Part shown: piece by piece, positions 6,642 to 45,030 of the stretch
How positions within the stretch are numbered: position 1 is the first letter of the stretch
Layout: every line of letters begins with the position of its first letter
DNA from: Sialis fuliginosa
Taxonomy: Eukaryota; Arthropoda; Insecta; Megaloptera; Sialidae
Reading direction: 5' to 3'
Length of the DNA stretch: 64,000 nucleotides
NCBI GenBank assembly: GCA_961205875.1
Contig: OY540818.1
Location: 976,001 to 1,040,000, forward strand
Notes under the pieces: generated by a model
The model's input: only the letters and a program-made list of their open reading frames with translations
What the model was told of the DNA's origin: nothing
The model's database searches: none
Made by a program: the position numbers and the translations under genes

Positions 6642-6642
6642 A

Positions 6643-7364: not shown

Positions 7365-7373
7365 AATTATGTT

Positions 7374-7505: not shown

Positions 7506-7506
<1 letters not shown>

Positions 7507-7557
<51 letters not shown>
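7507..7557. repeat. (TA)n microsatellite between PLE-2 and the PLE-1 array
   Basis: About 25 TA units separate the last base of PLE-2 from the first recognisable base of the PLE-1 array. It is likely the pre-existing insertion target. Confidence 0.95.
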
Positions 7558-7560
<3 letters not shown>

Positions 7561-8439
7561 AATATACCTATTTTGTAGGGGTTTTTTTTTAGGTCAAAAT
7601 ATTAATTAAAGAACTAAACCAATGTTCAAATCATTTTAATTAATAGCGCTTATTTTAATTTTCAACATTTTTGTCTTCATCAGAAATTAATAATTATCCC
7701 TATAAGAAATCATAAACATAAGTAAGTAACATAAGCAAATGAACAAGATATTCATAGATATAAACATATTTTTTTTACTTACAATTTAAACAGTAATTAG
7801 TGTGACCATATGTATGTAGTAAAAGATGCATATTACATCAAAAAAATTTTTTTTAAATATTAAAAAGTACCCATTCTTGTACAAAAGACTAAAAATATGT
7901 AAATGTGATATCCAACAGATAAAACAATATATAAAAACAATTTCTTTAAAACATTAAAACTTAAAAATTTAGTTTAAAAACGTTAAAAATAAATAAAATT
8001 CGTATCACATTGTATCACATGTTGAAAAGTATTTATACTAAGATAAAACTTAATTAAACAAGAACCATCAATTGTTTTTACTTAAAACTAGTTACAAATT
8101 TATTATACAAACATGAAAAAAGAAATAAAATTACTAGTGTTTCAATGAAAGAAAAGCACTAGTATTACAAACTTAATTATATTTATTACATCTATGGAAA
8201 ACAAAAATCTTATCTATGTTAAATGTCAATTTTAAGTACAAGGTAACCTAGAAAGAATTTTTTAAAAATTTTTTAAAAAGAGAGAAAAAAAGGGAACAAA
8301 AACCAACAAAATCAAACTAAAACATATACCTAATCAAACAAAAATGAAAAAAGTTAAAATTAATAGAAAAACCAAAAAATGGCATACAATACAAGCAAAA
8401 AGCAACGTGGAAAGAAGAAGAAAGAGGAAAAAAGAAAAT
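7555..8439 (-). repeat. Pseudo-LTR, outer left end of array
   Basis: This is the 3' flank of the outermost minus copy. In transcription order it holds a pyrimidine-rich tract after the stop codon, candidate AATAAA signals, the intron 7782-7700, the hammerhead 7692-7629 and the conserved end AGGTATATTTAAATA. It stops at the TA tract about 16 bp before where the next ORF would start. Confidence 0.8.
7629..7692 (-). ncRNA. Candidate hammerhead ribozyme, PLE-1 (outer left)
   Basis: On the minus strand the core CTGATGA runs from 7683 to 7677. It is followed by a short stem II (GAC with GTT), GAAA and stem III AATTAA/TTAATT around an AGCGC-containing loop. The cleavage triplet is TTA, with predicted scission between 7637 and 7636. 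Confidence 0.65.
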
Positions 8440-11109
8440 TTATTTAATTAAATTTAGATATGATTCTTTGAGGTGATTAAGATTTTCTCTAGAGTTAAGA
8501 CATTTAGGTTCTTTTAAGATATGTAACGATTCACTAAGTAATCTTTTTTTTAAAATAGGCTGAAAATCTAAAATTTCAACATCACCATATTCAACTTCGT
8601 GACCAGTCTGTTGTATATGGGTACGAAGTGCAGTAACTTCATTTTTAGCATATTTATGACTGTTGATTCTCTTTTGCAAGTATTGTTTAGATTGCCCTAA
8701 GTAAGAATAATCACAAGAACATTTAAGTTTATAAATAACGTTAGAACATTTCATCTTATCAGTTTTATTTTTTAATTTAGAAAAAAAAATTTTTGTAGTA
8801 TACTTATTTTTGTTTATCATTTTTATATTATGTCCAGAAACAACTCTTTTCATTTTTTCAGATAAAATAGGTATATACGGGAATGAAAAATATATTTGAT
8901 CATCATAAGAGTAATTGGAATTTTCTGCAACAGCCAAACTTTTACTATTTTTATTATGTCCATAAAGTATACTTTTGAGTCTATTATTTATAGTGTTTTT
9001 AAGAAAATTAATGGGATAACCATTTAATAAGAAAATATTGTAAACTTTGTTGAGTATTTGACTTCTATATTTAAAATTAGTGAATTTAATTGCCCGGTCT
9101 AAAATAGCAGTAATAACATTACGTTTATGTTCAATAGAGGAATTAGAATTGTAGTTCAAATATCTAGCAGACCAGGTAGGTTTAGTATACCATATGGTTT
9201 CAACTTTATTATGTTTGTTAACCAAAATTTTTATATCTAAAAAACTAATTTCTCTATTTTGATTTTCAAGTTCATAAGAAAATTGTAATCTATCATGAAA
9301 AGAATTAAAGCTATTGCATAAAGTTTCAATTTTATCCGAAGGTATTGCTGTAATGATGTCATCAACATATCTTTTAAAAAAAGGAATCTCATAATCTACA
9401 TTTTTCAAAACAGACTCTTGTAGTTCGTTCATAATAATATCAGCCAAAACAACAGATAGAGATGAACCCATAGGTGCTCCATAAATTTGTGAATAAAATT
9501 GATTTTTAAACTGGAAATATGACGTATTGCAACAAAATTTCAAACCATCAATAAAATCGTCCTTCTCAATATTAGTGTATTTTTTTATTTCTTCCCATTT
9601 ATTAGTGATAATCTCAATAGTAGTATCGATAGGTATGTTAGTAAACAATGATTTAACATCAAGTGAAATTAATTTATATTTATTAGGTATATGAAAATCT
9701 TTAATAAATTCATGGAATTCCCAAGAGTCTCTCACGGTATTATTATTAGCAGTAATATTTTTTAAAATATCAGAGAAAAATTTTGACAATTTTTGTTGTG
9801 GGCTATTATATGAAGCAACTATAGGTCTGACAGGATTATTTACTTTATGTAATTTTATCAACCCGTAAATTTGTGGAGGAGTACTATTATGCACTTTAAG
9901 TTGGTTACTCAAATTTTGATCAATATAACCCATTTCATAAAATTTTTGAATAATGTTATTGTTTCTGTTCTGGAAAATATTAGTGGGGTCTTTATGTATT
10001 TTAAGATATGTTTCACCATCATTTAACAGCTCATACATTTTATTATCATAATCTACTTTATCAATCAATACGGTTTTATTAGTTTTATCAGCACGAATCA
10101 CTTTGATATTTTCATTCTCCTTAAAAAACTTCCTTGCATCAGAAACATCCTTAATTAGAGAACAATTATATTTATTATTCAAAAAATTGTTTTTTTTCAT
10201 GTTATCCTTGTACTGATTAACATTATATATAAATTTATTTCTAATTAAGTTTTTTTCATTTTCATCTAGGTTGTCAATACCATATTCAAATGAAATAATC
10301 ATATCATTGATAGGTAGATTATTATTATTATAGGGTAAATTGAAATTTGATCCAAGTTTTAATAAATTGTTAATATTATCAGGTATCTTGTTAGAGGTTA
10401 AATTAACAACAAAATTCTCCTCATTGTGTTTAAGAGGGTTAAATTCAATATCTATTGGTAGCTTACAATTATATTTGTTATTATATTTAGAAACATGGTT
10501 ATTACTTATTATTAAATTTCTATTTTTATTATTATTATAGTTATCTACTATCTGTTTAGAACTATTGATACAATTATTAATATATTGATTTTCATTAACC
10601 ATGGCTTCAGACTTCAATTTATTAAATTTATTAATGACAACATTAAATGATTTATAATAAGTAAATTGATAAATAGAACTTTCAATGAAAAAAACTTGTT
10701 GTAAATCAGATATAGTGAGATATTGTTTTAGCAAACTATGACATTCATTAATACAATTTTTGTTATTTTTTAAATTACTAAAGGTTTCTGAAATTAACAG
10801 ATTTAATAGCTTGTACTTAAAATTATTTAAAATATTGTTATATCTATGTTTATTGCTATTATTACTTAAAGAAATAAAGTTTTTTTTATTATCAAATTTA
10901 CTATTCATAAATTTAGGAAAAAGATTATTCTTTTTACAACTTATAAGGAAAAATTTTTTTATATCTAGTCTTGCCTTTGTACTATATAATTTTCTTACTT
11001 GTTTCATTCTATCTTGGATGTCTTCATTTTTATATTTGTTGAGTAGAGAGTTCATATTACACTTATCATCCCCAGTGTTTTTTATATTAGTATTCATATA
11101 TATGACCAT
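8440..11109 (-). CDS. PLE-1 copy L1: reverse transcriptase with GIY-YIG endonuclease, 889 aa
   Basis: This is the single ORF of a Penelope-like retroelement. The RT domain spans roughly residues 330-680. It includes RADK (339-342), a typical early PLE motif; PQIYGLIKLHK (412-422); motif A SLDVKSLF with catalytic D484; GAPMGSSLS (544-552); and motif C YVDD (581-584), giving the catalytic triad D484/D583/D584. The thumb-like stretch KPTWSARYLNY with HKRNV follows, as in other PLEs. A GIY-YIG nuclease is at about 787-880: VIY 791-793, YLG 803-805, R814, H818, probable catalytic E860 and N872, with Cys 788, 797 and 799 nearby. The length is normal for an endonuclease-bearing PLE. The start is the first ATG after an in-frame stop and is conserved in PLE-2; Met5 is an alternative. 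The protein is rich in Asn, Lys and Ile, reflecting AT bias. No frameshift or missing catalytic residue is seen. Telomeric PLEs without an endonuclease are excluded by the nuclease domain. Confidence 0.93.
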   Translation of the reverse strand: MVIYMNTNIKNTGDDKCNMNSLLNKYKNEDIQDRMKQVRKLYSTKARLDIKKFFLISCKKNNLFPKFMNSKFDNKKNFISLSNNSNKHRYNNILNNFKYKLLNLLISETFSNLKNNKNCINECHSLLKQYLTISDLQQVFFIESSIYQFTYYKSFNVVINKFNKLKSEAMVNENQYINNCINSSKQIVDNYNNNKNRNLIISNNHVSKYNNKYNCKLPIDIEFNPLKHNEENFVVNLTSNKIPDNINNLLKLGSNFNLPYNNNNLPINDMIISFEYGIDNLDENEKNLIRNKFIYNVNQYKDNMKKNNFLNNKYNCSLIKDVSDARKFFKENENIKVIRADKTNKTVLIDKVDYDNKMYELLNDGETYLKIHKDPTNIFQNRNNNIIQKFYEMGYIDQNLSNQLKVHNSTPPQIYGLIKLHKVNNPVRPIVASYNSPQQKLSKFFSDILKNITANNNTVRDSWEFHEFIKDFHIPNKYKLISLDVKSLFTNIPIDTTIEIITNKWEEIKKYTNIEKDDFIDGLKFCCNTSYFQFKNQFYSQIYGAPMGSSLSVVLADIIMNELQESVLKNVDYEIPFFKRYVDDIITAIPSDKIETLCNSFNSFHDRLQFSYELENQNREISFLDIKILVNKHNKVETIWYTKPTWSARYLNYNSNSSIEHKRNVITAILDRAIKFTNFKYRSQILNKVYNIFLLNGYPINFLKNTINNRLKSILYGHNKNSKSLAVAENSNYSYDDQIYFSFPYIPILSEKMKRVVSGHNIKMINKNKYTTKIFFSKLKNKTDKMKCSNVIYKLKCSCDYSYLGQSKQYLQKRINSHKYAKNEVTALRTHIQQTGHEVEYGDVEILDFQPILKKRLLSESLHILKEPKCLNSRENLNHLKESYLNLIK

Positions 11110-12002
11110 CTTGATATTATTTAAATATACCTATTTTGTAGGGGTTTTTTTTTAGGTCAAAATATTAATTAAAGAACTAAACCAATGTTCAAATCATTTT
11201 AATTAATAGCGCTTATTTTAATTTTCAACATTTTTGTCTTCATCAGAAATTAATAATTATCCCTATAAGAAATCATAAACATAAGTAAGTAACATAAGCA
11301 AATGAACAAGATATTCATAGATATAAACATATTTTTTTTACTTACAATTTAAACAGTAATTAGTGTGACCATATGTATGTAGTAAAAGATGCATATTACA
11401 TCAAAAAAATTTTTTTTAAATATTAAAAAGTACCCATTCTTGTACAAAAGACTAAAAATATGTAAATGTGATATCCAACAGATAAAACAATATATAAAAA
11501 CAATTTCTTTAAAACATTAAAACTTAAAAATTTAGTTTAAAAACGTTAAAAATAAATAAAATTCGTATCACATTGTATCACATGTTGAAAAGTATTTATA
11601 CTAAGATAAAACTTAATTAAACAAGAACCATCAATTGTTTTTACTTAAAACTAGTTACAAATTTATTATACAAACATGAAAAAAGAAATAAAATTACTAG
11701 TGTTTCAATGAAAGAAAAGCACTAGTATTACAAACTTAATTATATTTATTACATCTATGGAAAACAAAAATCTTATCTATGTTAAATGTCAATTTTAAGT
11801 ACAAGGTAACCTAGAAAGAATTTTTTAAAAATTTTTTAAAAAGAGAGAAAAAAAGGGAACAAAAACCAACAAAATCAAACTAAAACATATACCTAATCAA
11901 ACAAAAATGAAAAAAGTTAAAATTAATAGAAAAACCAAAAAATGGCATACAATACAAGCAAAAAGCAACGTGGAAAGAAGAAGAAAGAGGAAAAAAGAAA
12001 AT
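11110..12002 (-). repeat. Pseudo-LTR between copies L2 and L1
   Basis: This 893-bp spacer is the 3' end of copy L2 and the 5' leader of copy L1. The intron is 11345-11263 and the hammerhead 11255-11192. The leader from the ribozyme cleavage site to the ATG is about 90 nt. Confidence 0.85.
11192..11255 (-). ncRNA. Candidate hammerhead ribozyme, PLE-1 L2/L1 spacer
   Basis: The core CTGATGA starts at 11246 on the minus strand. Stems II and III and the TTA cleavage triplet are as in the other PLE-1 spacers. It lies upstream of the L1 ORF. Confidence 0.65.
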
Positions 12003-14672
12003 TTATTTAATTAAATTTAGATATGATTCTTTGAGGTGATTAAGATTTTCTCTAGAGTTAAGACATTTAGGTTCTTTTAAGATATGTAACGATTCACTAA
12101 GTAATCTTTTTTTTAAAATAGGCTGAAAATCTAAAATTTCAACATCACCATATTCAACTTCGTGACCAGTCTGTTGTATATGGGTACGAAGTGCAGTAAC
12201 TTCATTTTTAGCATATTTATGACTGTTGATTCTCTTTTGCAAGTATTGTTTAGATTGCCCTAAGTAAGAATAATCACAAGAACATTTAAGTTTATAAATA
12301 ACGTTAGAACATTTCATCTTATCAGTTTTATTTTTTAATTTAGAAAAAAAAATTTTTGTAGTATACTTATTTTTGTTTATCATTTTTATATTATGTCCAG
12401 AAACAACTCTTTTCATTTTTTCAGATAAAATAGGTATATACGGGAATGAAAAATATATTTGATCATCATAAGAGTAATTGGAATTTTCTGCAACAGCCAA
12501 ACTTTTACTATTTTTATTATGTCCATAAAGTATACTTTTGAGTCTATTATTTATAGTGTTTTTAAGAAAATTAATGGGATAACCATTTAATAAGAAAATA
12601 TTGTAAACTTTGTTGAGTATTTGACTTCTATATTTAAAATTAGTGAATTTAATTGCCCGGTCTAAAATAGCAGTAATAACATTACGTTTATGTTCAATAG
12701 AGGAATTAGAATTGTAGTTCAAATATCTAGCAGACCAGGTAGGTTTAGTATACCATATGGTTTCAACTTTATTATGTTTGTTAACCAAAATTTTTATATC
12801 TAAAAAACTAATTTCTCTATTTTGATTTTCAAGTTCATAAGAAAATTGTAATCTATCATGAAAAGAATTAAAGCTATTGCATAAAGTTTCAATTTTATCC
12901 GAAGGTATTGCTGTAATGATGTCATCAACATATCTTTTAAAAAAAGGAATCTCATAATCTACATTTTTCAAAACAGACTCTTGTAGTTCGTTCATAATAA
13001 TATCAGCCAAAACAACAGATAGAGATGAACCCATAGGTGCTCCATAAATTTGTGAATAAAATTGATTTTTAAACTGGAAATATGACGTATTGCAACAAAA
13101 TTTCAAACCATCAATAAAATCGTCCTTCTCAATATTAGTGTATTTTTTTATTTCTTCCCATTTATTAGTGATAATCTCAATAGTAGTATCGATAGGTATG
13201 TTAGTAAACAATGATTTAACATCAAGTGAAATTAATTTATATTTATTAGGTATATGAAAATCTTTAATAAATTCATGGAATTCCCAAGAGTCTCTCACGG
13301 TATTATTATTAGCAGTAATATTTTTTAAAATATCAGAGAAAAATTTTGACAATTTTTGTTGTGGGCTATTATATGAAGCAACTATAGGTCTGACAGGATT
13401 ATTTACTTTATGTAATTTTATCAACCCGTAAATTTGTGGAGGAGTACTATTATGCACTTTAAGTTGGTTACTCAAATTTTGATCAATATAACCCATTTCA
13501 TAAAATTTTTGAATAATGTTATTGTTTCTGTTCTGGAAAATATTAGTGGGGTCTTTATGTATTTTAAGATATGTTTCACCATCATTTAACAGCTCATACA
13601 TTTTATTATCATAATCTACTTTATCAATCAATACGGTTTTATTAGTTTTATCAGCACGAATCACTTTGATATTTTCATTCTCCTTAAAAAACTTCCTTGC
13701 ATCAGAAACATCCTTAATTAGAGAACAATTATATTTATTATTCAAAAAATTGTTTTTTTTCATGTTATCCTTGTACTGATTAACATTATATATAAATTTA
13801 TTTCTAATTAAGTTTTTTTCATTTTCATCTAGGTTGTCAATACCATATTCAAATGAAATAATCATATCATTGATAGGTAGATTATTATTATTATAGGGTA
13901 AATTGAAATTTGATCCAAGTTTTAATAAATTGTTAATATTATCAGGTATCTTGTTAGAGGTTAAATTAACAACAAAATTCTCCTCATTGTGTTTAAGAGG
14001 GTTAAATTCAATATCTATTGGTAGCTTACAATTATATTTGTTATTATATTTAGAAACATGGTTATTACTTATTATTAAATTTCTATTTTTATTATTATTA
14101 TAGTTATCTACTATCTGTTTAGAACTATTGATACAATTATTAATATATTGATTTTCATTAACCATGGCTTCAGACTTCAATTTATTAAATTTATTAATGA
14201 CAACATTAAATGATTTATAATAAGTAAATTGATAAATAGAACTTTCAATGAAAAAAACTTGTTGTAAATCAGATATAGTGAGATATTGTTTTAGCAAACT
14301 ATGACATTCATTAATACAATTTTTGTTATTTTTTAAATTACTAAAGGTTTCTGAAATTAACAGATTTAATAGCTTGTACTTAAAATTATTTAAAATATTG
14401 TTATATCTATGTTTATTGCTATTATTACTTAAAGAAATAAAGTTTTTTTTATTATCAAATTTACTATTCATAAATTTAGGAAAAAGATTATTCTTTTTAC
14501 AACTTATAAGGAAAAATTTTTTTATATCTAGTCTTGCCTTTGTACTATATAATTTTCTTACTTGTTTCATTCTATCTTGGATGTCTTCATTTTTATATTT
14601 GTTGAGTAGAGAGTTCATATTACACTTATCATCCCCAGTGTTTTTTATATTAGTATTCATATATATGACCAT
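12003..14672 (-). CDS. PLE-1 copy L2: RT/GIY-YIG protein, 889 aa
   Basis: The translation is identical to copy L1, with the RT triad and GIY-YIG residues all intact. It is separated from L1 by one pseudo-LTR and preceded by another (14673-15565), so it has a complete 5' leader with intron and ribozyme and is potentially autonomous. Confidence 0.92.
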   Translation of the reverse strand: MVIYMNTNIKNTGDDKCNMNSLLNKYKNEDIQDRMKQVRKLYSTKARLDIKKFFLISCKKNNLFPKFMNSKFDNKKNFISLSNNSNKHRYNNILNNFKYKLLNLLISETFSNLKNNKNCINECHSLLKQYLTISDLQQVFFIESSIYQFTYYKSFNVVINKFNKLKSEAMVNENQYINNCINSSKQIVDNYNNNKNRNLIISNNHVSKYNNKYNCKLPIDIEFNPLKHNEENFVVNLTSNKIPDNINNLLKLGSNFNLPYNNNNLPINDMIISFEYGIDNLDENEKNLIRNKFIYNVNQYKDNMKKNNFLNNKYNCSLIKDVSDARKFFKENENIKVIRADKTNKTVLIDKVDYDNKMYELLNDGETYLKIHKDPTNIFQNRNNNIIQKFYEMGYIDQNLSNQLKVHNSTPPQIYGLIKLHKVNNPVRPIVASYNSPQQKLSKFFSDILKNITANNNTVRDSWEFHEFIKDFHIPNKYKLISLDVKSLFTNIPIDTTIEIITNKWEEIKKYTNIEKDDFIDGLKFCCNTSYFQFKNQFYSQIYGAPMGSSLSVVLADIIMNELQESVLKNVDYEIPFFKRYVDDIITAIPSDKIETLCNSFNSFHDRLQFSYELENQNREISFLDIKILVNKHNKVETIWYTKPTWSARYLNYNSNSSIEHKRNVITAILDRAIKFTNFKYRSQILNKVYNIFLLNGYPINFLKNTINNRLKSILYGHNKNSKSLAVAENSNYSYDDQIYFSFPYIPILSEKMKRVVSGHNIKMINKNKYTTKIFFSKLKNKTDKMKCSNVIYKLKCSCDYSYLGQSKQYLQKRINSHKYAKNEVTALRTHIQQTGHEVEYGDVEILDFQPILKKRLLSESLHILKEPKCLNSRENLNHLKESYLNLIK

Positions 14673-15565
14673 CTTGATATTATTTAAATATACCTATTTT
14701 GTAGGGGTTTTTTTTTAGGTCAAAATATTAATTAAAGAACTAAACCAATGTTCAAATCATTTTAATTAATAGCGCTTATTTTAATTTTCAACATTTTTGT
14801 CTTCATCAGAAATTAATAATTATCCCTATAAGAAATCATAAACATAAGTAAGTAACATAAGCAAATGAACAAGATATTCATAGATATAAACATATTTTTT
14901 TTACTTACAATTTAAACAGTAATTAGTGTGACCATATGTATGTAGTAAAAGATGCATATTACATCAAAAAAATTTTTTTTAAATATTAAAAAGTACCCAT
15001 TCTTGTACAAAAGACTAAAAATATGTAAATGTGATATCCAACAGATAAAACAATATATAAAAACAATTTCTTTAAAACATTAAAACTTAAAAATTTAGTT
15101 TAAAAACGTTAAAAATAAATAAAATTCGTATCACATTGTATCACATGTTGAAAAGTATTTATACTAAGATAAAACTTAATTAAACAAGAACCATCAATTG
15201 TTTTTACTTAAAACTAGTTACAAATTTATTATACAAACATGAAAAAAGAAATAAAATTACTAGTGTTTCAATGAAAGAAAAGCACTAGTATTACAAACTT
15301 AATTATATTTATTACATCTATGGAAAACAAAAATCTTATCTATGTTAAATGTCAATTTTAAGTACAAGGTAACCTAGAAAGAATTTTTTAAAAATTTTTT
15401 AAAAAGAGAGAAAAAAAGGGAACAAAAACCAACAAAATCAAACTAAAACATATACCTAATCAAACAAAAATGAAAAAAGTTAAAATTAATAGAAAAACCA
15501 AAAAATGGCATACAATACAAGCAAAAAGCAACGTGGAAAGAAGAAGAAAGAGGAAAAAAGAAAAT
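14673..15565 (-). repeat. Pseudo-LTR between copies L3 and L2
   Basis: This 893-bp spacer has the intron at 14908-14826 and the hammerhead at 14818-14755. It is the leader of L2 and the trailer of L3. Confidence 0.85.
14755..14818 (-). ncRNA. Candidate hammerhead ribozyme, PLE-1 L3/L2 spacer
   Basis: The core CTGATGA starts at 14809 on the minus strand, with the same stems and TTA cleavage triplet as the other units. Confidence 0.65.
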
Positions 15566-30598: not shown

Positions 30599-30605
30599 GG
30601 ATAAT

Positions 30606-30669: not shown

Positions 30670-30751
30670 TGAACATTGGTTTAGTTCTTTAATTAATATT
30701 TTGACCTAAAAAAAAACCCCTACAAAATAGGTATATTTAAATAATATCAAG

Positions 30752-33421: not shown

Positions 33422-34314
33422 ATTTTCTTTTTTCCTCTTTCTTCTTCTTTCCACGTTGCTTTTTGCTTGTATTGTATGCCATTTTTTGGTTTTTCTATTA
33501 ATTTTAACTTTTTTCATTTTTGTTTGATTAGGTATATGTTTTAGTTTGATTTTGTTGGTTTTTGTTCCCTTTTTTTCTCTCTTTTTAAAAAATTTTTAAA
33601 AAATTCTTTCTAGGTTACCTTGTACTTAAAATTGACATTTAACATAGATAAGATTTTTGTTTTCCATAGATGTAATAAATATAATTAAGTTTGTAATACT
33701 AGTGCTTTTCTTTCATTGAAACACTAGTAATTTTATTTCTTTTTTCATGTTTGTATAATAAATTTGTAACTAGTTTTAAGTAAAAACAATTGATGGTTCT
33801 TGTTTAATTAAGTTTTATCTTAGTATAAATACTTTTCAACATGTGATACAATGTGATACGAATTTTATTTATTTTTAACGTTTTTAAACTAAATTTTTAA
33901 GTTTTAATGTTTTAAAGAAATTGTTTTTATATATTGTTTTATCTGTTGGATATCACATTTACATATTTTTAGTCTTTTGTACAAGAATGGGTACTTTTTA
34001 ATATTTAAAAAAAATTTTTTTGATGTAATATGCATCTTTTACTACATACATATGGTCACACTAATTACTGTTTAAATTGTAAGTAAAAAAAATATGTTTA
34101 TATCTATGAATATCTTGTTCATTTGCTTATGTTACTTACTTATGTTTATGATTTCTTATAGGGATAATTATTAATTTCTGATGAAGACAAAAATGTTGAA
34201 AATTAAAATAAGCGCTATTAATTAAAATGATTTGAACATTGGTTTAGTTCTTTAATTAATATTTTGACCTAAAAAAAAACCCCTACAAAATAGGTATATT
34301 TAAATAATATCAAG
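33422..34314 (+). repeat. Pseudo-LTR between copies R1 and R2
   Basis: This 893-bp spacer has the intron at 34079-34161 and the hammerhead at 34169-34232. Confidence 0.85.
34169..34232 (+). ncRNA. Candidate hammerhead ribozyme, PLE-1 R1/R2 spacer
   Basis: The core CTGATGA starts at 34178; predicted scission is after 34224. Confidence 0.65.
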
Positions 34315-36984
34315 ATGGTCATATATATGAATACTAATATAAAAAACACTGGGGATGATAAGTGTAATATGAACTCTCTACTCAACAAATATAAAAATGA
34401 AGACATCCAAGATAGAATGAAACAAGTAAGAAAATTATATAGTACAAAGGCAAGACTAGATATAAAAAAATTTTTCCTTATAAGTTGTAAAAAGAATAAT
34501 CTTTTTCCTAAATTTATGAATAGTAAATTTGATAATAAAAAAAACTTTATTTCTTTAAGTAATAATAGCAATAAACATAGATATAACAATATTTTAAATA
34601 ATTTTAAGTACAAGCTATTAAATCTGTTAATTTCAGAAACCTTTAGTAATTTAAAAAATAACAAAAATTGTATTAATGAATGTCATAGTTTGCTAAAACA
34701 ATATCTCACTATATCTGATTTACAACAAGTTTTTTTCATTGAAAGTTCTATTTATCAATTTACTTATTATAAATCATTTAATGTTGTCATTAATAAATTT
34801 AATAAATTGAAGTCTGAAGCCATGGTTAATGAAAATCAATATATTAATAATTGTATCAATAGTTCTAAACAGATAGTAGATAACTATAATAATAATAAAA
34901 ATAGAAATTTAATAATAAGTAATAACCATGTTTCTAAATATAATAACAAATATAATTGTAAGCTACCAATAGATATTGAATTTAACCCTCTTAAACACAA
35001 TGAGGAGAATTTTGTTGTTAATTTAACCTCTAACAAGATACCTGATAATATTAACAATTTATTAAAACTTGGATCAAATTTCAATTTACCCTATAATAAT
35101 AATAATCTACCTATCAATGATATGATTATTTCATTTGAATATGGTATTGACAACCTAGATGAAAATGAAAAAAACTTAATTAGAAATAAATTTATATATA
35201 ATGTTAATCAGTACAAGGATAACATGAAAAAAAACAATTTTTTGAATAATAAATATAATTGTTCTCTAATTAAGGATGTTTCTGATGCAAGGAAGTTTTT
35301 TAAGGAGAATGAAAATATCAAAGTGATTCGTGCTGATAAAACTAATAAAACCGTATTGATTGATAAAGTAGATTATGATAATAAAATGTATGAGCTGTTA
35401 AATGATGGTGAAACATATCTTAAAATACATAAAGACCCCACTAATATTTTCCAGAACAGAAACAATAACATTATTCAAAAATTTTATGAAATGGGTTATA
35501 TTGATCAAAATTTGAGTAACCAACTTAAAGTGCATAATAGTACTCCTCCACAAATTTACGGGTTGATAAAATTACATAAAGTAAATAATCCTGTCAGACC
35601 TATAGTTGCTTCATATAATAGCCCACAACAAAAATTGTCAAAATTTTTCTCTGATATTTTAAAAAATATTACTGCTAATAATAATACCGTGAGAGACTCT
35701 TGGGAATTCCATGAATTTATTAAAGATTTTCATATACCTAATAAATATAAATTAATTTCACTTGATGTTAAATCATTGTTTACTAACATACCTATCGATA
35801 CTACTATTGAGATTATCACTAATAAATGGGAAGAAATAAAAAAATACACTAATATTGAGAAGGACGATTTTATTGATGGTTTGAAATTTTGTTGCAATAC
35901 GTCATATTTCCAGTTTAAAAATCAATTTTATTCACAAATTTATGGAGCACCTATGGGTTCATCTCTATCTGTTGTTTTGGCTGATATTATTATGAACGAA
36001 CTACAAGAGTCTGTTTTGAAAAATGTAGATTATGAGATTCCTTTTTTTAAAAGATATGTTGATGACATCATTACAGCAATACCTTCGGATAAAATTGAAA
36101 CTTTATGCAATAGCTTTAATTCTTTTCATGATAGATTACAATTTTCTTATGAACTTGAAAATCAAAATAGAGAAATTAGTTTTTTAGATATAAAAATTTT
36201 GGTTAACAAACATAATAAAGTTGAAACCATATGGTATACTAAACCTACCTGGTCTGCTAGATATTTGAACTACAATTCTAATTCCTCTATTGAACATAAA
36301 CGTAATGTTATTACTGCTATTTTAGACCGGGCAATTAAATTCACTAATTTTAAATATAGAAGTCAAATACTCAACAAAGTTTACAATATTTTCTTATTAA
36401 ATGGTTATCCCATTAATTTTCTTAAAAACACTATAAATAATAGACTCAAAAGTATACTTTATGGACATAATAAAAATAGTAAAAGTTTGGCTGTTGCAGA
36501 AAATTCCAATTACTCTTATGATGATCAAATATATTTTTCATTCCCGTATATACCTATTTTATCTGAAAAAATGAAAAGAGTTGTTTCTGGACATAATATA
36601 AAAATGATAAACAAAAATAAGTATACTACAAAAATTTTTTTTTCTAAATTAAAAAATAAAACTGATAAGATGAAATGTTCTAACGTTATTTATAAACTTA
36701 AATGTTCTTGTGATTATTCTTACTTAGGGCAATCTAAACAATACTTGCAAAAGAGAATCAACAGTCATAAATATGCTAAAAATGAAGTTACTGCACTTCG
36801 TACCCATATACAACAGACTGGTCACGAAGTTGAATATGGTGATGTTGAAATTTTAGATTTTCAGCCTATTTTAAAAAAAAGATTACTTAGTGAATCGTTA
36901 CATATCTTAAAAGAACCTAAATGTCTTAACTCTAGAGAAAATCTTAATCACCTCAAAGAATCATATCTAAATTTAATTAAATAA
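34315..36984 (+). CDS. PLE-1 copy R2: RT/GIY-YIG protein, 889 aa
   Basis: This is an intact ORF encoding the same 889 residues, with complete pseudo-LTRs on both sides. Confidence 0.92.
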   Translation: MVIYMNTNIKNTGDDKCNMNSLLNKYKNEDIQDRMKQVRKLYSTKARLDIKKFFLISCKKNNLFPKFMNSKFDNKKNFISLSNNSNKHRYNNILNNFKYKLLNLLISETFSNLKNNKNCINECHSLLKQYLTISDLQQVFFIESSIYQFTYYKSFNVVINKFNKLKSEAMVNENQYINNCINSSKQIVDNYNNNKNRNLIISNNHVSKYNNKYNCKLPIDIEFNPLKHNEENFVVNLTSNKIPDNINNLLKLGSNFNLPYNNNNLPINDMIISFEYGIDNLDENEKNLIRNKFIYNVNQYKDNMKKNNFLNNKYNCSLIKDVSDARKFFKENENIKVIRADKTNKTVLIDKVDYDNKMYELLNDGETYLKIHKDPTNIFQNRNNNIIQKFYEMGYIDQNLSNQLKVHNSTPPQIYGLIKLHKVNNPVRPIVASYNSPQQKLSKFFSDILKNITANNNTVRDSWEFHEFIKDFHIPNKYKLISLDVKSLFTNIPIDTTIEIITNKWEEIKKYTNIEKDDFIDGLKFCCNTSYFQFKNQFYSQIYGAPMGSSLSVVLADIIMNELQESVLKNVDYEIPFFKRYVDDIITAIPSDKIETLCNSFNSFHDRLQFSYELENQNREISFLDIKILVNKHNKVETIWYTKPTWSARYLNYNSNSSIEHKRNVITAILDRAIKFTNFKYRSQILNKVYNIFLLNGYPINFLKNTINNRLKSILYGHNKNSKSLAVAENSNYSYDDQIYFSFPYIPILSEKMKRVVSGHNIKMINKNKYTTKIFFSKLKNKTDKMKCSNVIYKLKCSCDYSYLGQSKQYLQKRINSHKYAKNEVTALRTHIQQTGHEVEYGDVEILDFQPILKKRLLSESLHILKEPKCLNSRENLNHLKESYLNLIK

Positions 36985-37877
36985 ATTTTCTTTTTTCCTC
37001 TTTCTTCTTCTTTCCACGTTGCTTTTTGCTTGTATTGTATGCCATTTTTTGGTTTTTCTATTAATTTTAACTTTTTTCATTTTTGTTTGATTAGGTATAT
37101 GTTTTAGTTTGATTTTGTTGGTTTTTGTTCCCTTTTTTTCTCTCTTTTTAAAAAATTTTTAAAAAATTCTTTCTAGGTTACCTTGTACTTAAAATTGACA
37201 TTTAACATAGATAAGATTTTTGTTTTCCATAGATGTAATAAATATAATTAAGTTTGTAATACTAGTGCTTTTCTTTCATTGAAACACTAGTAATTTTATT
37301 TCTTTTTTCATGTTTGTATAATAAATTTGTAACTAGTTTTAAGTAAAAACAATTGATGGTTCTTGTTTAATTAAGTTTTATCTTAGTATAAATACTTTTC
37401 AACATGTGATACAATGTGATACGAATTTTATTTATTTTTAACGTTTTTAAACTAAATTTTTAAGTTTTAATGTTTTAAAGAAATTGTTTTTATATATTGT
37501 TTTATCTGTTGGATATCACATTTACATATTTTTAGTCTTTTGTACAAGAATGGGTACTTTTTAATATTTAAAAAAAATTTTTTTGATGTAATATGCATCT
37601 TTTACTACATACATATGGTCACACTAATTACTGTTTAAATTGTAAGTAAAAAAAATATGTTTATATCTATGAATATCTTGTTCATTTGCTTATGTTACTT
37701 ACTTATGTTTATGATTTCTTATAGGGATAATTATTAATTTCTGATGAAGACAAAAATGTTGAAAATTAAAATAAGCGCTATTAATTAAAATGATTTGAAC
37801 ATTGGTTTAGTTCTTTAATTAATATTTTGACCTAAAAAAAAACCCCTACAAAATAGGTATATTTAAATAATATCAAG
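36985..37877 (+). repeat. Pseudo-LTR between copies R2 and R3
   Basis: This 893-bp spacer has the intron at 37642-37724 and the hammerhead at 37732-37795. Confidence 0.85.
37732..37795 (+). ncRNA. Candidate hammerhead ribozyme, PLE-1 R2/R3 spacer
   Basis: The core CTGATGA starts at 37741; predicted scission is after 37787. Confidence 0.65.
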
Positions 37878-40547
37878 ATGGTCATATATATGAATACTAA
37901 TATAAAAAACACTGGGGATGATAAGTGTAATATGAACTCTCTACTCAACAAATATAAAAATGAAGACATCCAAGATAGAATGAAACAAGTAAGAAAATTA
38001 TATAGTACAAAGGCAAGACTAGATATAAAAAAATTTTTCCTTATAAGTTGTAAAAAGAATAATCTTTTTCCTAAATTTATGAATAGTAAATTTGATAATA
38101 AAAAAAACTTTATTTCTTTAAGTAATAATAGCAATAAACATAGATATAACAATATTTTAAATAATTTTAAGTACAAGCTATTAAATCTGTTAATTTCAGA
38201 AACCTTTAGTAATTTAAAAAATAACAAAAATTGTATTAATGAATGTCATAGTTTGCTAAAACAATATCTCACTATATCTGATTTACAACAAGTTTTTTTC
38301 ATTGAAAGTTCTATTTATCAATTTACTTATTATAAATCATTTAATGTTGTCATTAATAAATTTAATAAATTGAAGTCTGAAGCCATGGTTAATGAAAATC
38401 AATATATTAATAATTGTATCAATAGTTCTAAACAGATAGTAGATAACTATAATAATAATAAAAATAGAAATTTAATAATAAGTAATAACCATGTTTCTAA
38501 ATATAATAACAAATATAATTGTAAGCTACCAATAGATATTGAATTTAACCCTCTTAAACACAATGAGGAGAATTTTGTTGTTAATTTAACCTCTAACAAG
38601 ATACCTGATAATATTAACAATTTATTAAAACTTGGATCAAATTTCAATTTACCCTATAATAATAATAATCTACCTATCAATGATATGATTATTTCATTTG
38701 AATATGGTATTGACAACCTAGATGAAAATGAAAAAAACTTAATTAGAAATAAATTTATATATAATGTTAATCAGTACAAGGATAACATGAAAAAAAACAA
38801 TTTTTTGAATAATAAATATAATTGTTCTCTAATTAAGGATGTTTCTGATGCAAGGAAGTTTTTTAAGGAGAATGAAAATATCAAAGTGATTCGTGCTGAT
38901 AAAACTAATAAAACCGTATTGATTGATAAAGTAGATTATGATAATAAAATGTATGAGCTGTTAAATGATGGTGAAACATATCTTAAAATACATAAAGACC
39001 CCACTAATATTTTCCAGAACAGAAACAATAACATTATTCAAAAATTTTATGAAATGGGTTATATTGATCAAAATTTGAGTAACCAACTTAAAGTGCATAA
39101 TAGTACTCCTCCACAAATTTACGGGTTGATAAAATTACATAAAGTAAATAATCCTGTCAGACCTATAGTTGCTTCATATAATAGCCCACAACAAAAATTG
39201 TCAAAATTTTTCTCTGATATTTTAAAAAATATTACTGCTAATAATAATACCGTGAGAGACTCTTGGGAATTCCATGAATTTATTAAAGATTTTCATATAC
39301 CTAATAAATATAAATTAATTTCACTTGATGTTAAATCATTGTTTACTAACATACCTATCGATACTACTATTGAGATTATCACTAATAAATGGGAAGAAAT
39401 AAAAAAATACACTAATATTGAGAAGGACGATTTTATTGATGGTTTGAAATTTTGTTGCAATACGTCATATTTCCAGTTTAAAAATCAATTTTATTCACAA
39501 ATTTATGGAGCACCTATGGGTTCATCTCTATCTGTTGTTTTGGCTGATATTATTATGAACGAACTACAAGAGTCTGTTTTGAAAAATGTAGATTATGAGA
39601 TTCCTTTTTTTAAAAGATATGTTGATGACATCATTACAGCAATACCTTCGGATAAAATTGAAACTTTATGCAATAGCTTTAATTCTTTTCATGATAGATT
39701 ACAATTTTCTTATGAACTTGAAAATCAAAATAGAGAAATTAGTTTTTTAGATATAAAAATTTTGGTTAACAAACATAATAAAGTTGAAACCATATGGTAT
39801 ACTAAACCTACCTGGTCTGCTAGATATTTGAACTACAATTCTAATTCCTCTATTGAACATAAACGTAATGTTATTACTGCTATTTTAGACCGGGCAATTA
39901 AATTCACTAATTTTAAATATAGAAGTCAAATACTCAACAAAGTTTACAATATTTTCTTATTAAATGGTTATCCCATTAATTTTCTTAAAAACACTATAAA
40001 TAATAGACTCAAAAGTATACTTTATGGACATAATAAAAATAGTAAAAGTTTGGCTGTTGCAGAAAATTCCAATTACTCTTATGATGATCAAATATATTTT
40101 TCATTCCCGTATATACCTATTTTATCTGAAAAAATGAAAAGAGTTGTTTCTGGACATAATATAAAAATGATAAACAAAAATAAGTATACTACAAAAATTT
40201 TTTTTTCTAAATTAAAAAATAAAACTGATAAGATGAAATGTTCTAACGTTATTTATAAACTTAAATGTTCTTGTGATTATTCTTACTTAGGGCAATCTAA
40301 ACAATACTTGCAAAAGAGAATCAACAGTCATAAATATGCTAAAAATGAAGTTACTGCACTTCGTACCCATATACAACAGACTGGTCACGAAGTTGAATAT
40401 GGTGATGTTGAAATTTTAGATTTTCAGCCTATTTTAAAAAAAAGATTACTTAGTGAATCGTTACATATCTTAAAAGAACCTAAATGTCTTAACTCTAGAG
40501 AAAATCTTAATCACCTCAAAGAATCATATCTAAATTTAATTAAATAA
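37878..40547 (+). CDS. PLE-1 copy R3: RT/GIY-YIG protein, 889 aa
   Basis: This is an intact ORF encoding the same 889 residues, with complete pseudo-LTRs on both sides. Confidence 0.92.
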   Translation: MVIYMNTNIKNTGDDKCNMNSLLNKYKNEDIQDRMKQVRKLYSTKARLDIKKFFLISCKKNNLFPKFMNSKFDNKKNFISLSNNSNKHRYNNILNNFKYKLLNLLISETFSNLKNNKNCINECHSLLKQYLTISDLQQVFFIESSIYQFTYYKSFNVVINKFNKLKSEAMVNENQYINNCINSSKQIVDNYNNNKNRNLIISNNHVSKYNNKYNCKLPIDIEFNPLKHNEENFVVNLTSNKIPDNINNLLKLGSNFNLPYNNNNLPINDMIISFEYGIDNLDENEKNLIRNKFIYNVNQYKDNMKKNNFLNNKYNCSLIKDVSDARKFFKENENIKVIRADKTNKTVLIDKVDYDNKMYELLNDGETYLKIHKDPTNIFQNRNNNIIQKFYEMGYIDQNLSNQLKVHNSTPPQIYGLIKLHKVNNPVRPIVASYNSPQQKLSKFFSDILKNITANNNTVRDSWEFHEFIKDFHIPNKYKLISLDVKSLFTNIPIDTTIEIITNKWEEIKKYTNIEKDDFIDGLKFCCNTSYFQFKNQFYSQIYGAPMGSSLSVVLADIIMNELQESVLKNVDYEIPFFKRYVDDIITAIPSDKIETLCNSFNSFHDRLQFSYELENQNREISFLDIKILVNKHNKVETIWYTKPTWSARYLNYNSNSSIEHKRNVITAILDRAIKFTNFKYRSQILNKVYNIFLLNGYPINFLKNTINNRLKSILYGHNKNSKSLAVAENSNYSYDDQIYFSFPYIPILSEKMKRVVSGHNIKMINKNKYTTKIFFSKLKNKTDKMKCSNVIYKLKCSCDYSYLGQSKQYLQKRINSHKYAKNEVTALRTHIQQTGHEVEYGDVEILDFQPILKKRLLSESLHILKEPKCLNSRENLNHLKESYLNLIK

Positions 40548-41440
40548 ATTTTCTTTTTTCCTCTTTCTTCTTCTTTCCACGTTGCTTTTTGCTTGTATTG
40601 TATGCCATTTTTTGGTTTTTCTATTAATTTTAACTTTTTTCATTTTTGTTTGATTAGGTATATGTTTTAGTTTGATTTTGTTGGTTTTTGTTCCCTTTTT
40701 TTCTCTCTTTTTAAAAAATTTTTAAAAAATTCTTTCTAGGTTACCTTGTACTTAAAATTGACATTTAACATAGATAAGATTTTTGTTTTCCATAGATGTA
40801 ATAAATATAATTAAGTTTGTAATACTAGTGCTTTTCTTTCATTGAAACACTAGTAATTTTATTTCTTTTTTCATGTTTGTATAATAAATTTGTAACTAGT
40901 TTTAAGTAAAAACAATTGATGGTTCTTGTTTAATTAAGTTTTATCTTAGTATAAATACTTTTCAACATGTGATACAATGTGATACGAATTTTATTTATTT
41001 TTAACGTTTTTAAACTAAATTTTTAAGTTTTAATGTTTTAAAGAAATTGTTTTTATATATTGTTTTATCTGTTGGATATCACATTTACATATTTTTAGTC
41101 TTTTGTACAAGAATGGGTACTTTTTAATATTTAAAAAAAATTTTTTTGATGTAATATGCATCTTTTACTACATACATATGGTCACACTAATTACTGTTTA
41201 AATTGTAAGTAAAAAAAATATGTTTATATCTATGAATATCTTGTTCATTTGCTTATGTTACTTACTTATGTTTATGATTTCTTATAGGGATAATTATTAA
41301 TTTCTGATGAAGACAAAAATGTTGAAAATTAAAATAAGCGCTATTAATTAAAATGATTTGAACATTGGTTTAGTTCTTTAATTAATATTTTGACCTAAAA
41401 AAAAACCCCTACAAAATAGGTATATTTAAATAATATCAAG
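40548..41440 (+). repeat. Pseudo-LTR between copies R3 and R4
   Basis: This 893-bp spacer has the intron at 41205-41287 and the hammerhead at 41295-41358. Confidence 0.85.
41295..41358 (+). ncRNA. Candidate hammerhead ribozyme, PLE-1 R3/R4 spacer
   Basis: The core CTGATGA starts at 41304; predicted scission is after 41350. Confidence 0.65.
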
Positions 41441-44110
41441 ATGGTCATATATATGAATACTAATATAAAAAACACTGGGGATGATAAGTGTAATATGAAC
41501 TCTCTACTCAACAAATATAAAAATGAAGACATCCAAGATAGAATGAAACAAGTAAGAAAATTATATAGTACAAAGGCAAGACTAGATATAAAAAAATTTT
41601 TCCTTATAAGTTGTAAAAAGAATAATCTTTTTCCTAAATTTATGAATAGTAAATTTGATAATAAAAAAAACTTTATTTCTTTAAGTAATAATAGCAATAA
41701 ACATAGATATAACAATATTTTAAATAATTTTAAGTACAAGCTATTAAATCTGTTAATTTCAGAAACCTTTAGTAATTTAAAAAATAACAAAAATTGTATT
41801 AATGAATGTCATAGTTTGCTAAAACAATATCTCACTATATCTGATTTACAACAAGTTTTTTTCATTGAAAGTTCTATTTATCAATTTACTTATTATAAAT
41901 CATTTAATGTTGTCATTAATAAATTTAATAAATTGAAGTCTGAAGCCATGGTTAATGAAAATCAATATATTAATAATTGTATCAATAGTTCTAAACAGAT
42001 AGTAGATAACTATAATAATAATAAAAATAGAAATTTAATAATAAGTAATAACCATGTTTCTAAATATAATAACAAATATAATTGTAAGCTACCAATAGAT
42101 ATTGAATTTAACCCTCTTAAACACAATGAGGAGAATTTTGTTGTTAATTTAACCTCTAACAAGATACCTGATAATATTAACAATTTATTAAAACTTGGAT
42201 CAAATTTCAATTTACCCTATAATAATAATAATCTACCTATCAATGATATGATTATTTCATTTGAATATGGTATTGACAACCTAGATGAAAATGAAAAAAA
42301 CTTAATTAGAAATAAATTTATATATAATGTTAATCAGTACAAGGATAACATGAAAAAAAACAATTTTTTGAATAATAAATATAATTGTTCTCTAATTAAG
42401 GATGTTTCTGATGCAAGGAAGTTTTTTAAGGAGAATGAAAATATCAAAGTGATTCGTGCTGATAAAACTAATAAAACCGTATTGATTGATAAAGTAGATT
42501 ATGATAATAAAATGTATGAGCTGTTAAATGATGGTGAAACATATCTTAAAATACATAAAGACCCCACTAATATTTTCCAGAACAGAAACAATAACATTAT
42601 TCAAAAATTTTATGAAATGGGTTATATTGATCAAAATTTGAGTAACCAACTTAAAGTGCATAATAGTACTCCTCCACAAATTTACGGGTTGATAAAATTA
42701 CATAAAGTAAATAATCCTGTCAGACCTATAGTTGCTTCATATAATAGCCCACAACAAAAATTGTCAAAATTTTTCTCTGATATTTTAAAAAATATTACTG
42801 CTAATAATAATACCGTGAGAGACTCTTGGGAATTCCATGAATTTATTAAAGATTTTCATATACCTAATAAATATAAATTAATTTCACTTGATGTTAAATC
42901 ATTGTTTACTAACATACCTATCGATACTACTATTGAGATTATCACTAATAAATGGGAAGAAATAAAAAAATACACTAATATTGAGAAGGACGATTTTATT
43001 GATGGTTTGAAATTTTGTTGCAATACGTCATATTTCCAGTTTAAAAATCAATTTTATTCACAAATTTATGGAGCACCTATGGGTTCATCTCTATCTGTTG
43101 TTTTGGCTGATATTATTATGAACGAACTACAAGAGTCTGTTTTGAAAAATGTAGATTATGAGATTCCTTTTTTTAAAAGATATGTTGATGACATCATTAC
43201 AGCAATACCTTCGGATAAAATTGAAACTTTATGCAATAGCTTTAATTCTTTTCATGATAGATTACAATTTTCTTATGAACTTGAAAATCAAAATAGAGAA
43301 ATTAGTTTTTTAGATATAAAAATTTTGGTTAACAAACATAATAAAGTTGAAACCATATGGTATACTAAACCTACCTGGTCTGCTAGATATTTGAACTACA
43401 ATTCTAATTCCTCTATTGAACATAAACGTAATGTTATTACTGCTATTTTAGACCGGGCAATTAAATTCACTAATTTTAAATATAGAAGTCAAATACTCAA
43501 CAAAGTTTACAATATTTTCTTATTAAATGGTTATCCCATTAATTTTCTTAAAAACACTATAAATAATAGACTCAAAAGTATACTTTATGGACATAATAAA
43601 AATAGTAAAAGTTTGGCTGTTGCAGAAAATTCCAATTACTCTTATGATGATCAAATATATTTTTCATTCCCGTATATACCTATTTTATCTGAAAAAATGA
43701 AAAGAGTTGTTTCTGGACATAATATAAAAATGATAAACAAAAATAAGTATACTACAAAAATTTTTTTTTCTAAATTAAAAAATAAAACTGATAAGATGAA
43801 ATGTTCTAACGTTATTTATAAACTTAAATGTTCTTGTGATTATTCTTACTTAGGGCAATCTAAACAATACTTGCAAAAGAGAATCAACAGTCATAAATAT
43901 GCTAAAAATGAAGTTACTGCACTTCGTACCCATATACAACAGACTGGTCACGAAGTTGAATATGGTGATGTTGAAATTTTAGATTTTCAGCCTATTTTAA
44001 AAAAAAGATTACTTAGTGAATCGTTACATATCTTAAAAGAACCTAAATGTCTTAACTCTAGAGAAAATCTTAATCACCTCAAAGAATCATATCTAAATTT
44101 AATTAAATAA
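41441..44110 (+). CDS. PLE-1 copy R4: RT/GIY-YIG protein, 889 aa
   Basis: This is the outermost full-length copy of the right arm, an intact ORF encoding the same 889 residues. It is followed by a complete pseudo-LTR and the first 27 nt of another unit. Confidence 0.92.
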   Translation: MVIYMNTNIKNTGDDKCNMNSLLNKYKNEDIQDRMKQVRKLYSTKARLDIKKFFLISCKKNNLFPKFMNSKFDNKKNFISLSNNSNKHRYNNILNNFKYKLLNLLISETFSNLKNNKNCINECHSLLKQYLTISDLQQVFFIESSIYQFTYYKSFNVVINKFNKLKSEAMVNENQYINNCINSSKQIVDNYNNNKNRNLIISNNHVSKYNNKYNCKLPIDIEFNPLKHNEENFVVNLTSNKIPDNINNLLKLGSNFNLPYNNNNLPINDMIISFEYGIDNLDENEKNLIRNKFIYNVNQYKDNMKKNNFLNNKYNCSLIKDVSDARKFFKENENIKVIRADKTNKTVLIDKVDYDNKMYELLNDGETYLKIHKDPTNIFQNRNNNIIQKFYEMGYIDQNLSNQLKVHNSTPPQIYGLIKLHKVNNPVRPIVASYNSPQQKLSKFFSDILKNITANNNTVRDSWEFHEFIKDFHIPNKYKLISLDVKSLFTNIPIDTTIEIITNKWEEIKKYTNIEKDDFIDGLKFCCNTSYFQFKNQFYSQIYGAPMGSSLSVVLADIIMNELQESVLKNVDYEIPFFKRYVDDIITAIPSDKIETLCNSFNSFHDRLQFSYELENQNREISFLDIKILVNKHNKVETIWYTKPTWSARYLNYNSNSSIEHKRNVITAILDRAIKFTNFKYRSQILNKVYNIFLLNGYPINFLKNTINNRLKSILYGHNKNSKSLAVAENSNYSYDDQIYFSFPYIPILSEKMKRVVSGHNIKMINKNKYTTKIFFSKLKNKTDKMKCSNVIYKLKCSCDYSYLGQSKQYLQKRINSHKYAKNEVTALRTHIQQTGHEVEYGDVEILDFQPILKKRLLSESLHILKEPKCLNSRENLNHLKESYLNLIK

Positions 44111-45022
44111 ATTTTCTTTTTTCCTCTTTCTTCTTCTTTCCACGTTGCTTTTTGCTTGTATTGTATGCCATTTTTTGGTTTTTCTATTAATTTTAACTTT
44201 TTTCATTTTTGTTTGATTAGGTATATGTTTTAGTTTGATTTTGTTGGTTTTTGTTCCCTTTTTTTCTCTCTTTTTAAAAAATTTTTAAAAAATTCTTTCT
44301 AGGTTACCTTGTACTTAAAATTGACATTTAACATAGATAAGATTTTTGTTTTCCATAGATGTAATAAATATAATTAAGTTTGTAATACTAGTGCTTTTCT
44401 TTCATTGAAACACTAGTAATTTTATTTCTTTTTTCATGTTTGTATAATAAATTTGTAACTAGTTTTAAGTAAAAACAATTGATGGTTCTTGTTTAATTAA
44501 GTTTTATCTTAGTATAAATACTTTTCAACATGTGATACAATGTGATACGAATTTTATTTATTTTTAACGTTTTTAAACTAAATTTTTAAGTTTTAATGTT
44601 TTAAAGAAATTGTTTTTATATATTGTTTTATCTGTTGGATATCACATTTACATATTTTTAGTCTTTTGTACAAGAATGGGTACTTTTTAATATTTAAAAA
44701 AAATTTTTTTGATGTAATATGCATCTTTTACTACATACATATGGTCACACTAATTACTGTTTAAATTGTAAGTAAAAAAAATATGTTTATATCTATGAAT
44801 ATCTTGTTCATTTGCTTATGTTACTTACTTATGTTTATGATTTCTTATAGGGATAATTATTAATTTCTGATGAAGACAAAAATGTTGAAAATTAAAATAA
44901 GCGCTATTAATTAAAATGATTTGAACATTGGTTTAGTTCTTTAATTAATATTTTGACCTAAAAAAAAACCCCTACAAAATAGGTATATTTAAATAATATC
45001 AAGATGGTCATATATATGAATA

Positions 45023-45030
<8 letters not shown>
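44111..45030 (+). repeat. Pseudo-LTR, outer right end of array
   Basis: This is a full 893-bp spacer (intron 44768-44850, hammerhead 44858-44921) plus the first nine codons of a next ORF (ATG at 45004, MVIYMNTNI). It then dissolves into the TA tract after AATATA. Confidence 0.85.
44858..44921 (+). ncRNA. Candidate hammerhead ribozyme, PLE-1 outer right
   Basis: The core CTGATGA starts at 44867; predicted scission is after 44913. Confidence 0.65.

Follow-up and report, generated by a model that had tools for sequence, protein, structure and literature searches.

For the Penelope-like elements (PLEs), the available text of a study in Anolis describes a purified enzyme (PAc) that cuts and extends both strands of its target, starts reverse transcription at two adjacent internal sites matching the tail of the element and is predicted to be a dimer, the steps after the start of reverse transcription being left for validation (PMC11167929). 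In Adineta vaga, the accessible parts of the account of Penelope families report a 31-bp tail that is optional on one inverted pseudo-long terminal repeat (pLTR), and direct repeats of 8-10 bp in the quoted cases (PMC3846280). Metazoan non-LTR retrozymes, as described in the portions of the literature consulted, are tandem units of about 170-400 nt with hammerhead motifs, for which copying through circular RNA has been proposed (PMC7229834), and the retrozyme authors, in the same portions, have further suggested small circular RNAs as possible templates for PLE enzymes (PMC7229834, PMC7761336). Unusual complementary DNA (cDNA) products are also made, by rolling-circle reverse transcription, by the bacterial defence reverse transcriptase DRT2, according to the available part of its description (PMC11100668). 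Here, these systems are compared with a tandem and inverted PLE array in a 64,000-nt stretch of the Sialis fuliginosa genome (contig OY540818.1, positions 976,001 to 1,040,000 of the forward strand), referred to throughout as the window.

The array is likely to be a single PLE insertion produced by two-armed target-primed reverse transcription of a circular RNA template, with subsequent joining of the two cDNA ends. The components of this reading differ in strength: two-armed priming is strongly supported and, as to mechanism, priming at two sites has the best support; the architecture of the array and its origin in a single event are likewise strongly supported, and the circular template for the 3,563-bp unit is likely.

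The left arm (7555..28838, minus strand) consists of five complete units and one unit truncated on its 5' side at unit position 87, and the right arm (28836..45030, plus strand) of one 5'-truncated unit, starting from unit position 1648, and four complete units. The arms meet head to head and overlap there by 3 bp (TCT, 28836..28838). The left arm terminates outwardly in what is termed here a short end (unit position -9) within a (TA)n tract (7507..7566), and the right arm in a long end (unit position +27) within an (AT)n tract (45010..45059). Each unit spans 3,563 bp between successive ATGs and carries an open reading frame (ORF) of 2,670 bp that encodes 889 residues with a reverse transcriptase domain and a putative C-terminal GIY-YIG-like region; the first lies at 8440..11109 on the minus strand and recurs identically from 12003, 15566, 19129 and 22692 on that strand and from 30752, 34315, 37878 and 41441 on the plus strand. 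The innermost units carry 5'-truncated ORFs at 26255..28822 (minus strand) and 28836..29858 (plus strand), the latter beginning within the reverse transcriptase. Self-BLAST and an exact period test, in which unit counts are those of the assembly, bore out the initial annotation as to the extent of the array (7555-45030), its exact 3,563-bp period and its nine full and two truncated units with a single inversion. The nine 889-residue ORFs (five on the minus and four on the plus strand), which had been called identical in protein, also represent one distinct nucleotide sequence, and the unit-to-unit nucleotide comparison that had been proposed found the eight complete ATG-to-ATG units to be letter-identical. 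Across the 37.5 kb, the sole substitution to break the period is at position 26196, all other mismatches being located where the outer ends enter (TA)n. The joins between units are seamless and identical, without non-templated letters or mixed haplotypes.

Genome-wide comparisons were made within the same genome (G000, 392 Mb). In the protein search, 51 of 1022 candidates were scored, such that copy counts are lower bounds, and all 51 were full length without stop codons. A 41-letter motif from the non-coding part of the unit gave 334 matches with at most three mismatches (157 forward, 177 reverse; control 0). Clustering was performed on 95 of the first 100 of these places, all exact and extending from C1 to C4:26.07M, after leaving out the five belonging to the incomplete C4:26.07M cluster. 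Among these listed matches, 29 of 35 clusters comprised a minus-strand block followed by a plus-strand block, head to head, their 3' ends facing out. The two arms contained equal numbers of motifs in 26 of the 29 and unequal numbers in three (1/3, 4/2 and 6/1); one of the equal clusters, C3:36.75M (four and four motifs), meets a contig end, leaving 25 that are equal for certain. Where an arm held more than one motif (nine clusters), five were equal, three were unequal and one was cut by the contig end. The inversion, which had been taken for a special feature of the window, is therefore the usual insertion form of the element. The window array, with one short and one long end, is the longest of its kind among the paired insertions described below, and is not unique in kind.

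The ends of these insertions follow a rule. Two kinds of outer end were seen in the loci first read, the short end, for which the final letters are ...AGGTATATTTAAAT, and the long end, which extends into the ORF start; they are 36 nt apart, a distance corresponding to the tail. Pattern searches for ends abutting (TA)n found 110 long ends, of which 100 were listed, and 88 short ends, all of which were listed. Pairing each minus-strand end with the next plus-strand end within 50 kb gave, among the ends listed, 75 paired insertions with 87 bp to 37.5 kb between the patterns. One long and one short end were present in 73 of the 75 (40 short-long, 33 long-short; binomial p = 7.5e-20 against one half). 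Three insertions outside the 75 (C4:26.07M, C12:16.03M and C5:31.74M) follow the same rule, and at a fourth, C9:662k, the right end is of the long type and the left end falls ~7 nt inward of the standard short position. The rule extends to an older subfamily (72-82% identity over the longer aligned stretches): once three internal matches had been set aside, all nine pairs combined a short end with a long one. One such older, diverged two-armed insertion of this related subfamily lies in the window at 6322..7519, with its long end on the left and its short end on the right, and shares its right (TA)n with the left end of the array. The end rule predicts that each insertion uses both reverse transcription start sites, one per target strand.

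Variants private to a locus indicate that the two arms of an insertion have a common source. At C6:5.18M, C14:3.55M (four units), C14:4.69M and C3:21.75M, such variants were common to the units compared and to both arms, and at C3:33.68M three same-strand units share variants of their own. Both arms of the window array carry one haplotype, including an AA at unit positions 2836-2837 found in no other locus compared. Among 17 of the 18 smallest insertions, the rearranged L053 being left out, the arms shared 24 departures from the family state compared with nine that were private to one arm. The single-event synthesis suggested in the initial annotation is accordingly the best-supported origin, given the one haplotype across both arms and the direct repeats found at two other two-armed insertions.

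Splice state shows the same concordance. The non-coding part of the unit contains an 83-nt GT-AG intron (unit positions 3328-3410; 41205..41287 on the plus strand in one unit), which is kept in the window array and exactly removed in some other insertions. It is precisely absent in 14 arms; both arms are spliced in all six insertions where both reach the intron, the remaining two spliced arms being in L047, where the partner is only 58 nt, and L079, which stands alone. In five small insertions with arms stopping at or inside the intron, both arms are unspliced. Since the intron is exactly removed and splice state is concordant, the insertion template is RNA and the two arms reflect one kind of RNA; the simplest case is that both were copied from one molecule. 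Twelve of the 14 spliced arms stop at unit positions 3059-3082, as expected for run-off at an RNA 5' end, and the other two stop earlier (L054 right arm, 3183; L056 left arm, 3121).

Where the arms meet, BLAST-placed ends in 22 loci overlapped by 1-6 nt at 13 loci and were separated by inserts of 0-7 nt at the other nine; at two further joins the overlap was 12 nt (C14:4.69M) and the insert 9 nt (C14:3.55M). Such short overlaps and inserts are typical of end joining. In many small insertions both arms stop near the same template position, with a median difference of 46.5 nt compared with 137 nt when shuffled (p = 0.00085), and they stop at unlike positions in L047, L051, L052 and L055. Arm lengths correlate (pooled Spearman 0.69 over 26 insertions, a mixed set chosen by size and made up of the 18 smallest insertions and eight picked for full copies or mini-units). 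The longer arm is the short-end arm in the window, L051 and L052, and the long-end arm in L055 and C5. As the end type of the longer arm varies and substitutions are unmirrored, neither arm is a copy of the other.

The target is AT-rich, with (TA)n tracts holding most ends of the first 30 loci. A 13-bp direct repeat surrounds the two-armed insertion C5:31.74M and a direct repeat of up to 14 bp the C4:26.07M mini-array, a third locus that was checked lying in (TA)n, where none could be distinguished. A dispersed repeat (L001:5074-5400, with 19 further copies) stands beside (TA)n and repeatedly neighbours PLE insertions. The same (TA)n beside this repeat was present at L076 and L077 without a PLE in the 330 bases shown, indicating that the tract belongs to the target. 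Several insertions were also observed close to contig ends (the C3 end, C5 140 kb, C7 47-91 kb, C10 62-93 kb and C11 52-77 kb); two of these contigs, C5 and C7, open with telomeric CCTAA repeats, which suggest an arthropod.

The case for a circular template is drawn from the direction of copying and from two mini-arrays. As reverse transcription begins at the ORF start and moves 5'-ward, a linear monomer yields the non-coding part only; the presence of the ORF in the arms therefore requires a template that is a multimer or a circle. The mini-arrays at C4:26069251-26072942 (L059, L061) and C14:4805368-4810050 (L062) are built from 263-nt units bounded exactly by the splice acceptor at unit position 3411 and by a donor-like GTAAGA that follows unit position 111 in the next ORF, the join reading CAA followed directly by GGATAATT. 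In the window, the corresponding segment of 263/264 nt is located at 41288..41551 on the plus strand in one unit. The C4 mini-array has seven joins per arm, one short and one long end, and 11 identical units among 12 full ones; in the C14 mini-array, 18 joins lie in a single arm and all 17 full units are identical. The unit ends coincide with the splice sites and not with a cleavage site. For these 263-nt units, copying repeatedly around a small circle is a simpler account than serial splicing of a linear multimer, such that the mini-arrays point to circular templates, and it is by the same reasoning that the template of the 3,563-bp unit is likely to be circular. Passage through a single-unit bottleneck would also explain the fixation of locus-marking variants in the units compared. 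It is possible that the mini-arrays represent the birth of a retrozyme-like satellite.

Under the proposed mechanism, the PLE enzyme would cut both strands of an AT-rich target, and each cut 3' end would prime reverse transcription at an internal RNA site, -9 or +27, the two sites lying 36 nt apart around the start codon. One arm would use one start site and the other arm the other, with both enzymes moving 5'-ward on the same template species; we infer that both arms copy the same molecule and that the 5' end is that of a capped RNA. A linear capped RNA would give short arms ending by run-off at its 5' end, near unit positions 3060-3080, and lacking the ORF, because the latter is located 3' of both start sites. 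On a circular RNA, both enzymes would circle repeatedly, each extending its arm by several exact units. End joining would then link the 3' ends of the two cDNAs head to head, and fill-in of the staggered cut would produce the direct repeat. The circle itself may form by hammerhead-like cleavage and ligation, or by back-splicing. The broader proposition, in which this PLE replicates via circular RNA and two enzyme subunits, one per cut strand and each starting at a fixed site of its own, chase each other round one circle so that their two cDNAs become the two arms, could equally prove right or wrong.

Several observations weigh against this interpretation. The 75 pairs include one short-short and one long-long pair, and 38 ends are unpaired. 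The short-short pair, C3:33.66M, has arms of different period (3576-3577 and 3562) and for that reason is probably two insertions, although it is still counted in the 75; the long-long pair, C14:4.13-4.15M, has two different flanks and stands as an exception. Another long-long array, C10:63-91k, is outside the 75 and has flanks that match perfectly in inverted orientation for more than 1 kb (C10:61901-92500; L036, L037, L072, L073); it is probably an assembly fold-back or duplication, and because its flanks mirror each other it offers no usable test of the end rule. Six of the 35 motif clusters are one-sided among the matches listed, C14:4.81M and C5:347k show one arm only, and some arm pairs are very unequal (e.g. 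510 and 9,940 bp). The three units of the C5:25.5M array (C5:25515692-25525632; L060, L027, L028) differ from one another, with C/T/T at unit position 2686 and T/A/T at 3042, a heterogeneity that a single monomer circle does not predict. By BLAST, contig C10 begins (L064) and contig C3 ends (L066) within a PLE unit, so that the unit number of the largest arrays is provisional; contigs break in such arrays, and longer source arrays could be absent from the assembly. Lastly, Rfam recognised no hammerhead, and ribozyme cleavage was unnecessary for insertion of the Anolis PLE in vitro, according to the available text (PMC11167929).

Some of these points favour an account that keeps two-armed priming and replaces the circle with a long linear read-through RNA of a tandem source array, the number of units reflecting the distance travelled. 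The differing units of C5:25.5M, at two sites, are what a heterogeneous multimer would give, serial splicing could also generate 263-nt units, and PLEs are transcribed as multi-copy RNA in the scenario set out in the accessible parts of the Anolis study (PMC11167929). However, locus-marking variants are fixed in the units compared, which calls for a single-unit bottleneck, and multimer templates would tend to shrink each generation. The C14 mini-array would further need an 18-unit source of ~64 kb, whereas the largest paired span is 37.5 kb, a figure that arrays broken by contig ends could exceed. A linear multimer is thus unlikely, without being negligible. End-to-end template jumping, in which the enzyme finishes a monomer RNA and jumps to the 3' end of another to build concatemers, has a precedent, as R2-type enzymes do this. 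The unit joins of the window are nonetheless seamless and identical, haplotypes of different loci are not mixed within the arrays compared, and reverse transcription starts internally in the published relative, as far as its description was available (PMC11167929), leaving template jumping very improbable.

Amplification at the DNA level after a simple insertion, by unequal crossing-over, gene conversion or break-induced replication, is afforded an even smaller likelihood. Identical tandem units are what this process classically produces, and gene conversion could make the two arms alike, but the two-armed form spans 87 bp to 37.5 kb between end patterns, each arm of the C4 mini-array has seven unit joins, the end types are fixed and the arm lengths are correlated. 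An assembly artefact, which had been put forward as the main alternative and in which the inversion or the unit number would have been made by the assembler, has similarly little to be said for it: the C10 and C3 contig ends inside a unit show that reads did not always span the arrays, and C10:63-91k has mirror-image flanks, but the same architecture occurs in the 18 insertions of less than 1 kb that were read, which are within ordinary long-read length, direct repeats flank two insertions, and in the window the flanks are unlike each other and the arms differ in length and end type. For the architecture, an artefact was rejected, given that the head-to-head form is usual for the element and is shown by the tiny insertions too. 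Self-priming fold-back, in which one cDNA folds and copies itself, has been proposed on an antisense template for bdelloid Penelope elements in the accessible part of that account (PMC3846280), and would account for head-to-head palindromes and for arms that stop at the same coordinate in some small insertions (e.g. L042, L046 and L050). If one arm were copied from the other, the two should seldom differ by the 36-nt tail, as they do in 73 of 75 insertions; single-unit substitutions are also unmirrored (window 26196; the C4 mini-array), and the longer arm is sometimes short-ended and sometimes long-ended. Fold-back was rejected on the end rule and the arm overlap, and its probability is regarded as the slightest of those considered.

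The identity of the element as Penelope-like, proposed in the initial annotation, is supported by the match of its reverse transcriptase segment, searched alone, to PF00078 (38.8 bits, E = 1.1e-9, cut-off 29.6) and by the tandem and inverted units, although the whole 889-residue protein gave no reverse transcriptase match in the domain search. PLE-typical traits present here are the reverse transcriptase domain, tandem and inverted pLTR units, intron retention, a 36-nt tail at one inverted end and an AT-rich target with short direct repeats. The C-terminus gave no Pfam or PDB match for GIY-YIG; it aligned with a neighbouring PLE-like fragment (BLASTP E = 8e-6) that itself scored 19.9 bits with PF01541, below the cut-off of 22.6, and its motif order would fit a GIY-YIG region. 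The PLE-like fragment with this weak PF01541 match, which belongs to another family (L070, C14:4150301-4150900), adjoins a (TA)n that was also hit by the present element. AlphaFold on the single PLE sequence returned a mean predicted local distance difference test score of 34, and no relatives of the element were found in IMG/VR. A putative hammerhead-like core (CTGATGA ... GAAA) was recognised by eye, and its place checked, at 41300..41354 on the plus strand in one unit. Rfam reported no hammerhead and nothing at the gathering threshold on the whole window, and on 451 bases no hammerhead and only an unrelated small nucleolar RNA match (E = 6.7). Inspection by eye also suggested an alternative hammerhead around the start codon, which was discarded since the older subfamily has not retained it. 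Downstream of the array, the window contains large inverted-repeat blocks at 49660-53771 and 54126-64000, mostly of 94-98% identity and with a 408-bp tandem repeat in the first, neither of which matched the PLE units in the self-BLAST.

If replication does proceed via circular RNA, this one mechanism would account for intron retention, the tail, tandem units and inverted copies in PLEs, and back-spliced circles of the element would seed new retrozyme-like satellites. Taken with the mini-arrays, the end rule makes several long-standing questions testable in one system: the origin of tandem units, inverted copies and the tail, the survival of introns and the possible rise of small ribozyme-bearing tandem satellites. 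The rule of one long and one short end, the shared arm haplotypes and rolling-circle arrays of multiple rounds were not found in the literature searched, which covered few subscription papers; a rolling-circle way of jumping looks not to have been pinned down previously for the Penelope family.

Set against the known systems, the inverted form invites comparison with LINE-1 twin priming, in which two primers copy RNA at one target to give a head-to-head inversion, each piece being copied from a different part of one RNA. Here, unlike in twin priming, both arms copy the same 3' region, starting 36 nt apart, and twin priming was rejected on the end rule and this overlap of the arms. With Anolis PAc, in the parts of its description that were accessible, the element has in common a single ORF with reverse transcriptase and a C-terminal GIY-YIG region that is putative here, tandem units with pLTRs, an AT-rich target and a tail of 30-40 nt between two start sites of reverse transcription (PMC11167929). 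The Anolis start site is, however, deeper in the ORF (111-118, compared with -9 and +27 here), and those parts of the study hold no report of one start site per arm, shared arm haplotypes or multi-round arrays (PMC11167929). Head-to-head inverted pLTRs and intron retention are shared with the Adineta vaga Penelope families, for which the available account invokes self-priming on an antisense template (PMC3846280), an explanation that the end rule and unmirrored substitutions seen here do not fit. DRT2, in the available part of its description, is a bacterial defence system and not a transposon, unlike the PLE (PMC11100668). Finally, unlike the retrozymes as described in the portions consulted (PMC7229834), the 263-bp mini-units are cut from the PLE at splice sites and bear its end types, with a hammerhead core that is here putative.

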